Assembly (NCBI RefSeq): GCF_018617485.1
Contig: NZ_JACSKH010000001.1
Span: 62,001-126,000 of the forward strand
Length of the DNA stretch: 64,000 bases
Direction of reading: 5' to 3'
From: Exiguobacterium sp. s124
GTDB taxonomy: Bacteria > Bacillota > Bacilli > Exiguobacteriales > Exiguobacteriaceae
Position numbers and translations under genes: made by a program. Shown in pieces: positions 56,476 through 62,024 of the stretch. The stretch's first letter is position 1; each line of letters starts with the position of its first letter. The notes under the pieces were generated by a model. The model was given only the letters and a program-made list of their open reading frames with translations. It searched no databases and was not told where the DNA came from.

Positions 56476-57764
56476 TCAGGCTAGCCCCGTCGTCCCGACG
56501 GTTGAAGAAGCCAAGATGCGTTCGGCTTCTAATTTCAAGTTCAGTCCCGCGTTCACATCCCGGTCGTGGTGGACCCCGCAGTTCGGGCATGTCCATTCAC
56601 GCAAGCCGAGATGCTTCACGTCTTTGTGTTGATGGCCGCAACCCGAACACGCTTGGCTCGAGGCGAAGGTCTTCCCGACCTTCACGACGGTCTTCCCGTA
56701 CCAGTCGGCCTTATACTCGAGCATGCGGAAGAACGCCGACCAGCTGACCTCGGAGATTGACTTGCTCAACTTGCGGTTCTTCTGCATGTTCTTCACCTGC
56801 AGGGTCTCGATGCCGATGACGTCGTGGTTTTTGACGATCTCGGTCGACACCTTGTGCAGGAAGTCGGCGCGTTTGTTGGCGATTTTCTCATGGATGCGGG
56901 CGACTTTCCGCTTCTGCTTCTGATAGTTCTTCGCCTCGGAGAGTCTCACCTTCTTGTTCAGGGCGATGCGCTGGCGACGGGACAACTTGCGCTGTTCGCG
57001 GGCTAGCTTCTTCTCGAGCGTACGGAAATAACGGTCGTTCTTGTACAATGTGCCGTCCGATAGAACGGCAAAGTTCTTCAGCCCGACGTCGACGCCGACC
57101 GATGAACCGGTCTTCGGCAGTTCACCGATTTCCCGCTCTACGAGAAGGGAGACGAAGTATTTGCCCGAAGCCGTGCGTCGGATCGTGGCGTTCAGGATGC
57201 GGCCCTCGACCTGTCTCGAGTTGGCGAACCGTACCCACTTCAGCTTGGGGAGTTTGAGTTGATTCCCGACGATCGAGACCTCGGGGAGCTGGGACTTGCC
57301 TTGGATGTTCGCCGTATAGGATTGGACGGGGTGTCGCTTCGACTTGAAACGGGGATGATTCCCCTCCTTCTTGAAGAACTTCTTGTACGCGTCGGCCAGG
57401 TGTTTGACACTGTTCTGGACGGCCGTGCTGTCCACTTCCGTCAACCAACTGAATTCTTGTTTGAGCATGGGAAGTGCTTTCGAGCAGGCATCATACGACA
57501 GTCCCTTGCCGGTCGCTTCATAGGCCGCGTCCCATTTCGCCAGGAAGTGGTTGAACACGAACCGGGAACAGCCGATCGTCTTGGCGATCAGGACCTCCTG
57601 TTCCTTCGTCGGATAGATCCGAAACTTGTAAGCCTTGTGCTTCACCATGATGTTCACCCCCTTGAAGGAATCATACCCGAAAGAGAGGCAGGCAATTCAT
57701 CTCCCACTTTCACTAGGGTTTTGCCCTGAACGTTTAGAAGTGGGAGTATTCTCACCTAATTTTG
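56400..57764 (-). mobile_element. IS200/IS605-family TnpB-only element (IS1341 type)
   Basis: Contains tnpB and both ends but no tnpA. Right end (56400-56475): hairpin CTCTC/GAGAG and a longer hairpin CCACCT/AGGTGG, ending near 'gttcaaa', the usual 3' part of the reRNA/omegaRNA. Left end: hairpin 'ctcccactt' (57701-57709) with 'aagtgggag' (57738-57746). The sequence next to the left boundary, minus strand TTTAT (57765-57769), is a plausible target-adjacent motif. Boundaries are estimated to within a few bases. It can move only with a TnpA supplied elsewhere. Confidence 0.75.
56476..57648 (-). CDS. tnpB: TnpB, RNA-guided nuclease of IS605-type element
   Basis: A 390-residue, full-length TnpB. 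RuvC catalytic residues are visible: Asp in '[16 protein letters not shown]', Glu in '[11 protein letters not shown]' and Asp in '[10 protein letters not shown]'. Between the last two is the zinc ribbon 'CSGCGHQH...CPNCGVHH'. The N-terminus '[17 protein letters not shown]' and '[12 protein letters not shown]' are the wedge/RNA-binding region. ATG at 57648 follows 'aaggggg'. All catalytic residues are intact, so it should be active. GC content is higher than that of flanking genes, consistent with transfer. Confidence 0.92.
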
Positions 57765-59175: not shown

Positions 59176-60462
59176 ATGTTCACAGCCGTCAAACAACAAA
59201 TTCGGTGCGAGACGATCGGGACCGTCCTTGATTTTTATGACCAGTCGATTCGTCATCTTTCGGAAGAAGCGAGACAAGAGAAGTATGCGAAGATGAGTTC
59301 GAGCCCGTTCTCATTCTTTCGAGGAAGTTCACACTTGTTCTATTATGACTTTGCGAAAGTTCCGATCGCGTTTGACACAGGTCCCGAGCACCCGACGTTC
59401 ATTCAAGGAGACTTGCACTTTGAAAATTTCGGTGTGTTCGAGGACGGTGCCGGTACGATCATTTATGACGTAAACGATTTTGACGAGGCGTACATCGGAT
59501 CATATTTGTTCGATTTGTTGCGGATGGCGGTCTCTGTCGATTTGTTCGCGGCCGAGTCTGGGTTTGATGGAAAAGCGGCCATCGAGGCGTTCGCCCGCTC
59601 TTACGCAGAGTCGATTGAGAAGCATGCGAACGGGCAAAGTGAGCATATTCAATTTACGAAAGAGAATACGTGTAAAGCCGTGAAAAAAGTCATTAAAAAA
59701 GCGGAGAAAAAGAAGGACGAATTCATGTCCGAACGAACGGAAGTACGGGACGAGGAACGTTACTTTTCAACGAGTGAGGATTTGATTCCCCTTTCATCAG
59801 GTATGCGCGAGAAGATCGAGACGGCCTGGGGAGATTATCTGTCTTCTTTGTCAGAGGAGCATCGTCATCACGCCGATCATTATGAAATCAAAGACATTGC
59901 CATCAAGCTTCAAAGTGGAACGGCTTCTATCGGTCTAGAGCGTTACTATATTTTGATTGAAGGAGCCGACAAAGAGCACGATGAAGATGTCATTTTAGAA
60001 ATGAAACAGGCACAATCTGCCGTCCCATCGCTCTTTTTGCCGACGCATCCGCTATTTGAGAACGGATTATCGCATCAAGGAGCGCGTGTCGTGGCCGCAC
60101 AGCGGGCAATGGTCCATAGTCGTGATCCATATCTCGGTTATTTGACGATTGATGGAAAAGAGTATTATGTAAGGCAGCGCTCACCTTATAAGCGCAAAGT
60201 GAAGGCGAAACACATGAAAGATGAGAAGTCGCTCATCGAGACGTTGAAAGTGCAAGCGCAAATCACAGCGAAGATTCACGCACGGGCCGATGCGACGTCT
60301 GACGCGTTGGATTATACGGCGAGTGAACGAATCGCGGCGGCAATCGGTGACTCTCCGTCCCTGTTTATTCGACAGTTATCGAGATGGGCTGATTTTTATG
60401 CGAATCAGGTTCGCTTTGACTACGACGCCTTTTTGAATTGGGTCGAATCAAGGAAGCGTTAA
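59176..60462 (+). CDS. DUF2252 family protein
   Basis: A 428-residue cytosolic protein with the kinase-like DUF2252 pattern: 'SPFSFFRGSSHLFYYDF', 'IQGDLHFENFGVFEDGAGTIIYDVNDFDEAYIGSYLFDLLRMAVS' (resembling the aminoglycoside-phosphotransferase HxDxxxxN and DxD motifs) and 'YYVRQRSPYKRKV'. ATG at 59176 is behind 'aagggga'. Likely binds nucleotide; substrate unknown. In an operon with msrAB. Confidence 0.88.
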   Translation: MFTAVKQQIRCETIGTVLDFYDQSIRHLSEEARQEKYAKMSSSPFSFFRGSSHLFYYDFAKVPIAFDTGPEHPTFIQGDLHFENFGVFEDGAGTIIYDVNDFDEAYIGSYLFDLLRMAVSVDLFAAESGFDGKAAIEAFARSYAESIEKHANGQSEHIQFTKENTCKAVKKVIKKAEKKKDEFMSERTEVRDEERYFSTSEDLIPLSSGMREKIETAWGDYLSSLSEEHRHHADHYEIKDIAIKLQSGTASIGLERYYILIEGADKEHDEDVILEMKQAQSAVPSLFLPTHPLFENGLSHQGARVVAAQRAMVHSRDPYLGYLTIDGKEYYVRQRSPYKRKVKAKHMKDEKSLIETLKVQAQITAKIHARADATSDALDYTASERIAAAIGDSPSLFIRQLSRWADFYANQVRFDYDAFLNWVESRKR

Positions 60463-60524
60463 GGAAACTTGCGAATCGAAGGGGAAATCCTGCACAATGG
60501 AAGCGTAAAGGATGTGTAAGGACC

Positions 60525-60803
60525 ATGATTACAGAACAACAAGTCATCGCTCAGATGCGTCAAGTGATGACACAGATTGAGTCATCGACGGGCGAAGTAC
60601 AAAAGCGTCATTTGGCAAAGTTGATGGGCTTTTGCGAACTGCTATTAGCGGAGACGTCTGAAGCGAAGGGTGTCAGCACGGCACAAGCGACGATACCGGC
60701 GAGTGAATCAAAACCACCGCTCGATCGTCAGATGGCCGCCTTCCTAGGGATTCCAATGGAAGAAGACGAACAACCTAAATCGGATTCATTGCTCGATTTT
60801 TGA
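60525..60803 (+). CDS. YwdI/DUF5327 family protein (92 aa)
   Basis: A small helical protein: 'VIAQMRQVMTQIESSTGEVQKRHLAKLMGFCELLLAE' matches the N-terminal helices of Bacillus YwdI, followed by a linker and acidic tail ending 'DSLLDF'. ATG at 60525; the ribosome site 'aagga' is close. Follows DUF2252 by 62 bases. Function unknown in the family. Confidence 0.75.
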   Translation: MITEQQVIAQMRQVMTQIESSTGEVQKRHLAKLMGFCELLLAETSEAKGVSTAQATIPASESKPPLDRQMAAFLGIPMEEDEQPKSDSLLDF

Positions 60804-60832
60804 ACCACATGTGCATCACATGTGGTTTTTTT
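60803..60832 (+). terminator. Intrinsic terminator of msrAB-DUF2252-ywdI
   Basis: Eleven-base stem 'aaccacatgtg' with its complement, loop of three, then a T7 run. Confidence 0.87.
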
Positions 60833-60847
60833 GTGGAATCACTTTCA

Positions 60848-60875
60848 TTGACTTAAATACCTTAGGGGGTATAAT
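60848..60875 (+). promoter_or_regulatory. Rhodanese promoter with CsoR/CstR-type operator
   Basis: -35 TTGACT (60848-60853), 16-base spacer, -10 TATAAT (60870-60875). The spacer holds ATACC-ttaggg-GGTAT (60857-60872), closely like CsoR (copper) and CstR (persulfide) operators of the TACCC..GGGGTA type. Confidence 0.65.
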
Positions 60876-60911
60876 GGGTGTAAGAAATGAAAATCAAATG
60901 GAGGCGTGAAT

Positions 60912-61277
60912 ATGTTGGACTTTCTTTTTGTAGCGGTCGTCATTGGACTTGTGTATTTCTGGTGGAGTCGCCGAAACAATGTTAAAACGGTCTCGACGGA
61001 CGACTTGAAACGAAGAATCGCGGAAGAGCGGAACATTCAACTGTTGGACGTGCGTGAGCCGCATGAATACCGCGGAGGACATATTAAGCAAGCGAAAAAT
61101 GTGCCTCTTTCAGGATTTGGGAACGCGCAAGCGAAATATCCGAAGGAAAAAGAGCGTCCTGTCTACGTGATCTGTCAAAGTGGCATGCGTAGCCAACGCG
61201 CCGCAGCGATGCTCAAGAGTGCCGGATATACCGACGTCTATTCTGTAAAAGGCGGAATGAATTTCTGGCGAGGATAA
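60912..61277 (+). CDS. Membrane-anchored rhodanese (sulfurtransferase)
   Basis: A 121-residue protein with an N-terminal helix ('LDFLFVAVVIGLVYFWW') and a single rhodanese domain ('LLDVREPHEYRGGHIKQAKNVPL', catalytic loop 'VICQSGMRSQRAA' with the persulfide-forming cysteine, 'VKGGMNFWRG'). ATG at 60912 lies seven bases after 'atggagg'. The operator in its promoter suggests induction by sulfane sulfur or copper. Single gene. Confidence 0.92.
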   Translation: MLDFLFVAVVIGLVYFWWSRRNNVKTVSTDDLKRRIAEERNIQLLDVREPHEYRGGHIKQAKNVPLSGFGNAQAKYPKEKERPVYVICQSGMRSQRAAAMLKSAGYTDVYSVKGGMNFWRG

Positions 61278-61283
61278 TGGACG

Positions 61284-61314
61284 CGACTGAACGAATCGGT
61301 TCAGTCGTTTTTTT
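61284..61314 (+). terminator. Intrinsic terminator of the rhodanese gene
   Basis: Stem 'cgactgaac' (61284-61292) with 'gttcagtcg' (61299-61307), then T7. Confidence 0.87.
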
Positions 61315-61391
61315 GTCACTACGTTTTCCCTTTTGCATTTTCGGGGATTCTGCTACGGTAGGGAGAGAGTGAAAGAGAGGGGATCAATCCA

Positions 61392-62024
61392 ATGGCAGTG
61401 ATTTTATTTGATATCGATGGCACGTTAGTAGATACGACAGGACCGATGACACAAGCAATTCATGAGGCGCTTGAGGAACTTCCTCATCTTCCGAAACCGA
61501 GTGAAGAAGCAGTCCGCTCAGGATACGGCTTGGCAGGTAACGCATTTTGGGAGCATGTTATTCCAGAAGCGTCGCTCGAAGAGATTCGTTTCATTCGCAG
61601 ATTGCGTCACACGACGCTCGAGAAGACGATGGAAGGGCAGAACGTCTTATTCGATGGAATTCGTGACATGTTGGAAACACTTCACGAACAAGGCCACACG
61701 TTGACGACGGCGAGTAACTGCGGCGTCCATTACATGAACCTGATTTTAGATACGCAACAGATTCGTTCATATATGACGGCGCCGGAATGCTTGGAGTCCG
61801 TCAGTGGCGAGAAGAAAGCAGACATTCTGACGGCGCATCGGGTCCGTCACGGTGAGGCGGACTATATTATGGTCGGCGATCGCAAATCGGATGTCGAGGC
61901 AGCACGGGCGCACGATTTTCCGGTCGTCTTGACAGGATTCGGATTCGGAAATGAAGAAGAGTGGGCGCTTGCGGATCACGTCATCAAGTCACCGAACGAT
62001 TTAGTCGAATGGGTCAACCGATAA
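61392..62024 (+). CDS. HAD phosphatase, phosphoglycolate-phosphatase-like
   Basis: HAD subclass I hydrolase of 210 residues. Motif I 'LFDIDGTLVDTTG', motif II 'TTASNCG', lysine in 'GEKKAD' and motif IV 'MVGDRKSDVEAARAH'. The helical cap lies at residues 18-85. Resembles Gph/PpaX; substrate uncertain. Ribosome site 'gagaggggat'. Confidence 0.88.
   Translation: MAVILFDIDGTLVDTTGPMTQAIHEALEELPHLPKPSEEAVRSGYGLAGNAFWEHVIPEASLEEIRFIRRLRHTTLEKTMEGQNVLFDGIRDMLETLHEQGHTLTTASNCGVHYMNLILDTQQIRSYMTAPECLESVSGEKKADILTAHRVRHGEADYIMVGDRKSDVEAARAHDFPVVLTGFGFGNEEEWALADHVIKSPNDLVEWVNR

Follow-up and report, generated by a model that had tools for sequence, protein, structure and literature searches.

The cst operon of Staphylococcus aureus carries genes for a sulfurtransferase, a persulfide dioxygenase, TauE, and SQR. 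The direct control exerted by its repressor, CstR, was considered likely to be confined to one operon (PMC5480029; this and the other papers are cited here from excerpts of their text). YrkD of Bacillus licheniformis is a CstR-like repressor of sulfane-sulfur genes that is freed from DNA by elemental-sulfur treatment; it controls two promoters of one 11-gene cluster, and the excerpt mentions no single-gene unit at a remote place (PMC9918477). In Enterococcus faecalis, CstR controls the rhodaneses RhdA and RhdB together with CoAPR, a CoA-persulfide reductase that includes a rhodanese domain (PMC9405070). Related DNA sites are known for other members of the CsoR family. The type 2 operators of CsoR in Streptomyces lividans, a copper regulator, are G-tract pseudo-palindromes with a TAC/GTA inverted repeat spaced as TAC-X9-GTA (PMC3902906), and TTHA1953 of Thermus thermophilus, a CsoR-family repressor of sulfur-oxidation genes, was tested with an oligonucleotide that has ATACC/GGTAT half-sites (PMC10318464). 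Here, we analyzed a 64-kb stretch of the genome of Exiguobacterium sp. s124 (64,000 nucleotides, hereafter the window), in which a promoter at 60848-60875 with an embedded ATACC-N6-GGTAT palindrome precedes a rhodanese gene.

We consider it highly likely, on comparative sequence grounds, that positions 60857-60872 form an operator through which CstR controls a rhodanese of the persulfide response. Compared with the S. aureus cst operon, the Exiguobacterium operator is found at three separate core promoters, one of which is that of a stand-alone rhodanese far from cstR. The E. faecalis CoAPR is close to a fusion enzyme encoded beside Exiguobacterium cstR, although the Exiguobacterium enzyme adds TusA and DsrE-type domains (by Pfam) and, unlike in E. 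faecalis, the window rhodanese stands under a promoter of its own at a different locus. The S. lividans CsoR operators are alike in their G-tract and TAC/GTA repeat but differ in spacing, with X9 there and X8 (as fixed by the search pattern) at the Exiguobacterium core sites.

A conserved, probable operator within the rhodanese promoter

The promoter reads TTGACT-TAA-ATACCTTAGGGGGTAT-AAT on the forward strand. Its -35 hexamer, TTGACT (60848-60853), and its -10 hexamer, TATAAT (60870-60875), were recognized both in the sequence and by a promoter scan, and the former is invariant in 19/19 orthologous promoters. The CstR-type operator ATACCTTAGGGGGTAT (60857-60872) is an exact match to ATACC-N6-GGTAT and constitutes a pseudo-palindrome with a tract of five G and TAC/GTA half-sites (TAC-X8-GTA, whereas the S. 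lividans copper sites have X9) that overlaps the promoter. The initial annotation had described this element as exactly filling the -35/-10 spacer. The promoter-embedded element is real and its sequence is as described, but the spacer (60854-60869, 16 nt) is nearly rather than exactly filled: the operator starts 3 nt past the -35 hexamer and ends on the first three bases of the -10 hexamer, which it shares.

This was the only exact ATACC-N6-GGTAT in the window (n = 1), with a chance expectation of ~0.018 per 64-kb window under a first-order Markov model, and for the form ATACC-NNA-GGGGGTAT the expectation is 7e-5 per window (same model, both strands). Copies with up to two mismatches occurred in the window at chance level (15 observed and 13.9 expected), and therefore only the exact site is informative. 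Likewise, a promoter scan of 60400-61450 returned 60848-60875 as the sole promoter, with 11/12 hexamer matches, but shuffled sequence yields 1.4 promoter-like matches per region, making the promoter match alone weak evidence. Conservation is a stronger test of the site than chance statistics. All 19 Exiguobacterium genomes searched encode an orthologous rhodanese, and in every one of them the first base of the operator lies 52-56 nt before its start codon. Across the same genomes, 24 of the 28 columns of the promoter-operator are invariant, compared with 3/40 upstream and 0/22 downstream. One rhodanese (genome G012, C1:677662-678023) is split over two frames by a frameshift or sequencing error, and its operator is intact.

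The genome holds four exact ATACC-N6-GGTAT sites, three of which have the ATACC-NNA-GGGGGTAT form. These three stand at the window rhodanese, at the cstR promoter, and at the promoter of the membrane rhodanese-TauE and dioxygenase-like genes, so that the further copies of the operator that the initial annotation had suggested looking for are present in the same form at the promoters of the repressor and of sulfurtransferase/dioxygenase-like genes. The site at C2:288099 adjoins cstR, and this occurrence of the operator at the repressor's own promoter recurs in 19/19 genomes. It divides cstR, with a 143-amino-acid gene behind it, from a divergent rhodanese and an 833-amino-acid CoA-disulfide-reductase-rhodanese-TusA-DsrE fusion. 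The third site divides a divergent membrane rhodanese-TauE from a rhodanese and a metallo-beta-lactamase-rhodanese protein, which is dioxygenase-like in that its sequence resembles persulfide dioxygenases. Rhodanese-domain matches in the genome number 13, in 11 open reading frames (ORFs), six of which lie in operator units and five outside; the operator is thus not a mere companion of every rhodanese.

Based on the strict G-tract motif ATACCNNNGGGGGTAT, 65 sites were detected in the 19 genomes and 0 in a reversed control, and all 65 were read in their gene context. Three core promoters, each present in 19/19 genomes, account for 57 of these sites, namely those of this rhodanese, the cstR locus, and the dioxygenase-like locus. 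In columns that the search pattern does not impose, position 8 is A in 57/57 core sites, and the operator runs on as AWT, completing the -10 box TATAWT, also in 57/57; the other invariant columns, including the X8 spacing, follow from the pattern searched. The operator shared between cstR and sulfur-gene promoters lends comparative-genomic support to the earlier proposal that the rhodanese is a sulfide/persulfide-response gene. Judging from these shared promoters, the rhodanese gene is very probably part of a persulfide-controlled gene set of a known kind, whose members here lie at several places in the genome.

The remaining eight sites comprise four at an SQR-like gene and four before a CitMHS-type transporter. 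In the first group (four genomes; L099, L108, L121, and L128), the motif lies between the gene for an SQR-like flavoprotein and a divergent membrane protein gene. Of these two, with one protein each scanned, the flavoprotein matched Pyr_redox_2, with FCSD_central below cut-off, and the membrane protein had no Pfam family above cut-off. In the second group (4/19 genomes; L093, L095, L098, and L127 on the reverse strand), the motif immediately precedes the start codon of a gene for a CitMHS/sodium:sulfate-type transporter, and ABC-transporter genes run divergently from it.

A CstR-type repressor at another locus

A search of the genome (2,818,669 bases, 15 contigs) for CsoR/CstR homologues found two PF02583 (CsoR-family) genes (E = 1.6e-29 and 5.5e-26). 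Each is located well away from the window, in agreement with the initial annotation, which had placed the repressor elsewhere. One of them, at C1:1993263-1993499, encodes a copper-type CsoR, which adjoins a P-type ATPase with an HMA domain (copA) and a small HMA protein, matches the CsoR structure 4m1p (E = 3e-27), and has a Cys-His-Cys pattern. The other, at C2:287686-287922, encodes a CstR-type protein with 7mq1/7mq2 as its best structure match (E = 5e-16); the molecule was named CsoR by the depositors, but a figure legend (PMC9774590) gives 7MQ2 as CstR. An NCBIfam scan returned no CstR model above cut-off. Where the copper-type CsoR has Cys...His-x-x-x-Cys, the CstR-type protein has Cys...Asn-x-x-x-Cys, with Asn in place of the copper-ligand His. 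Its two sensing cysteines are present, with Asn four residues before the second (ECRD...NLEQC, compared with YCVD...HMRKC in the copper type), and its gene is linked to sulfurtransferase genes, namely the divergent rhodanese and the four-part fusion. The best explanation is that this CstR-type protein, encoded at another locus, would be the repressor of the window rhodanese.

A comparable arrangement was found in the sister genus, of which 19 genomes were searched, 16 with a third CsoR-family gene and three without. Among those with the gene, 16/16 have ATACC-N6-GGTAT 81-88 bp from its PF02583 match, and 14/16 of these cstR sites contain four or more consecutive G or C. Each of the three genomes without the third gene has one site only, ATACCCTGTTAGGTAT, and no site near such a gene; ATACCCTGTTAGGTAT is also present away from the third gene in 6/16 of the other sister-genus genomes.

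By analogy with characterized relatives, from which DNA binding by CstR, repression, and the inducer are all taken, CstR would occupy the TAC/GTA half-sites and the G-tract between -35 and -10 when per- or polysulfide is absent, blocking RNA polymerase. Per- or polysulfide would cross-link two cysteines of CstR, which would then leave the DNA. The rhodanese would then be made alongside the rhodanese/CoA-disulfide-reductase fusion, the dioxygenase-like enzyme, and the TauE-type exporter, and may take up sulfane sulfur and hand it on at the inner face of the membrane.

Copper, crosstalk, and chance as alternatives

Several observations, all of them indirect, weigh against a CstR operator at this promoter. 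The fourth exact site in the genome, ATACCCTAATTGGTAT, adjoins a weakly MerR-like gene (E = 0.0087, under cut-off), and ATACC-N6-GGTAT alone is accordingly not CstR-specific; this fourth site is probably a different thing from the CstR operator. The four sites before the CitMHS-type transporter are doubtful as operators, as their AGGGGG could serve as a ribosome-binding site. TTHA1953, itself a sulfur regulator of the CsoR family, uses a site whose consensus, TACNNTACNNNNGTANNGTA, is without a G-tract and has a spacing unlike that of the Exiguobacterium operator (PMC10318464). In the sister genus, 2/16 cstR sites (G025 and G033) lack a stretch of four G or C, and another Cys-Asn-Cys paralogue is still present in the three genomes that have no third gene. 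Outside Exiguobacterium, the same promoter-embedded spacing precedes copper genes (a Listeria CsoR, L184, and, by eye, a Sporolactobacillus P-type ATPase, L197) as well as unrelated genes. The promoter-embedded pattern, which fixes X8 and is uninformative on other spacings, was found in 70 stretches of named genomes. The 14 from Exiguobacterium all have a rhodanese directly downstream (14/14), whereas, of the 56 others, 18 contain an ORF of the CsoR-family or rhodanese type within the stretch fetched and 38 contain no such ORF; the pattern alone is therefore not diagnostic of a CstR site outside the genus.

Bare ATACC-N6-GGTAT was rejected as a CstR marker, being too loose with one of four genome sites beside the weakly MerR-like gene, and the G-tract form was used instead. 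The ATACCCTAATTGGTAT palindrome is located at C1:428423, and the identical 16-mer occurs in 10/17 genomes among the matches listed. The second Cys-Asn-Cys paralogue of the sister genus has its own promoter element, ATACC-N5-GGGCAT, in 10/11 promoters read. In five records assigned to Slackia, Actinomycetes, Coriobacteriaceae, or Coriobacteriia (L165, L176, L193, L207, and L220), the promoter-embedded site is followed by a gene that looks thioredoxin-like by eye (WCGPC), and a CsoR-family ORF is found some 1 kb away. Five Nitrospira stretches (L160, L166, L194, L198, and L212) have TTGACAATTATACCTGTTCAGGTATAAT before a small gene that is HigB-like by eye.

That the copper-type CsoR paralogue binds the site, making the rhodanese a copper-response gene, is improbable. 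Such a regulator is present in the genome, CsoR operators are likewise G-tract pseudo-palindromes with TAC/GTA repeats (PMC3902906), and the Listeria and Sporolactobacillus sites show the same promoter-embedded spacing before copper-type genes. However, the csoR-copA promoter keeps a different conserved block, TTGACAC-NN-TTA-NN-GGGTAGGGGTATATT, in 19/19 Exiguobacterium genomes, and none of the 19 aligned csoR-copA promoters contains ATACC-N6-GGTAT. These promoters have TAC-X9-GTA in 18/19 cases, compared with TAC-X8-GTA at the 57 core sites, where X8 is imposed by the search pattern, and the sites of the persulfide and copper paralogues apparently differ by one base in spacing. The core sites, moreover, adjoin sulfur genes. 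Copper control is therefore unlikely, given that copA accompanies the gene for the copper-type CsoR and that their promoter element is a different one, and it was rejected as the principal interpretation on the ground that the genus csoR-copA promoter has another site.

Equally improbable is crosstalk, in which both paralogues would use the site and the rhodanese would answer to persulfide as well as copper. Half-sites and G-tracts are similar at the two kinds of promoter, which would be consistent with shared binding, but the two promoters keep separate conserved forms, and little to no cross-binding has been reported between two CsoR-family paralogues of T. thermophilus (PMC10318464). Least probable of all is that a strong promoter contains the palindrome by accident, or that it is bound by an unrelated regulator, for example one of the MerR type. 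Promoter-like matches do arise readily by chance, and the bare palindrome also stands at the non-sulfur locus beside the weakly MerR-like gene, but the site is conserved in 19/19 genomes within an otherwise variable region, and its strict G-tract form has 57 core copies at sulfur loci and none in the reversed control.

The rhodanese unit and a dispersed gene set

The gene controlled by the putative CstR operator (60912-61277, forward strand) encodes a single-domain rhodanese of 121 amino acids (PF00581, E = 4.7e-23). It starts with ATG at 60912, preceded by a ribosome-binding site, GGAGG, read from the sequence at 60900-60904. The protein has the active-site loop CQSGMR (CxxGxR) at residue 88 and an N-terminal hydrophobic segment (hydropathy 1.95 over residues 1-19), and it is probably membrane-anchored; its enzyme activity and its membrane topology are predicted from characterized relatives. 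A hairpin scan placed terminator-like hairpins on both sides, on the forward strand, one ending the upstream DUF5327 gene (60802-60828) and one closing the rhodanese unit (61283-61308), with two found in the region compared with 0.8 in shuffles. A single-gene unit is therefore likely, and the flanking hairpins support the operon structure that had been proposed initially, so that the rhodanese gene is probably its own transcription unit. Further upstream in the window, an ORF at 56476-57657 on the reverse strand resembles, by eye, a TnpB/OrfB-type transposase.

The cst genes are spread over three loci in Exiguobacterium, whereas they stand together in the sister genus. Among six sister-genus cst loci fetched from the 16 genomes with the gene, CstR, a DsrE-type protein, a membrane rhodanese, a rhodanese, a TusA/rhodanese-type protein, and a 378-amino-acid, partly dioxygenase-like protein were clustered in 6/6 and TauE in 5/6. 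In 19/19 sister-genus genomes, the HAD-gene homologue has neither the rhodanese nor DUF5327 within 1.5 kb. A quick tree, which left out the further genome rhodanese at C1:1001257, placed the window rhodaneses, the TauE-locus rhodanese, and the sister-genus cst-cluster rhodanese in one group, with open forks and long branches meeting. The window rhodanese may have left a cluster of this kind or may be the product of a duplication.

Elemental-sulfur disproportionation by Exiguobacterium was reported in 2025 with a pointer to rhodanese-like genes, and the excerpt names neither a regulator nor a particular gene (PMC12510457). The open-licence literature matches listed gave no account of a CstR regulon in this genus. 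Tentatively, the genus may possess a dispersed CstR regulon with three to five promoters, the core ones having the operator fused to the -10 box. In it, the membrane rhodanese that is part of the cluster in the sister genus would have its own unit and operator copy, and it could possibly act, on persulfide induction, as the point of entry into the elemental-sulfur use that has been reported in Exiguobacterium (PMC12510457). The dispersal of the proposed regulon is a modestly new point, and it reveals no new kind of mechanism. What is offered is a specific predicted regulon, with one operator form recurring at the three core promoters of 19/19 genomes; it names candidate genes and a putative switch for the elemental-sulfur disproportionation reported in Exiguobacterium (PMC12510457).
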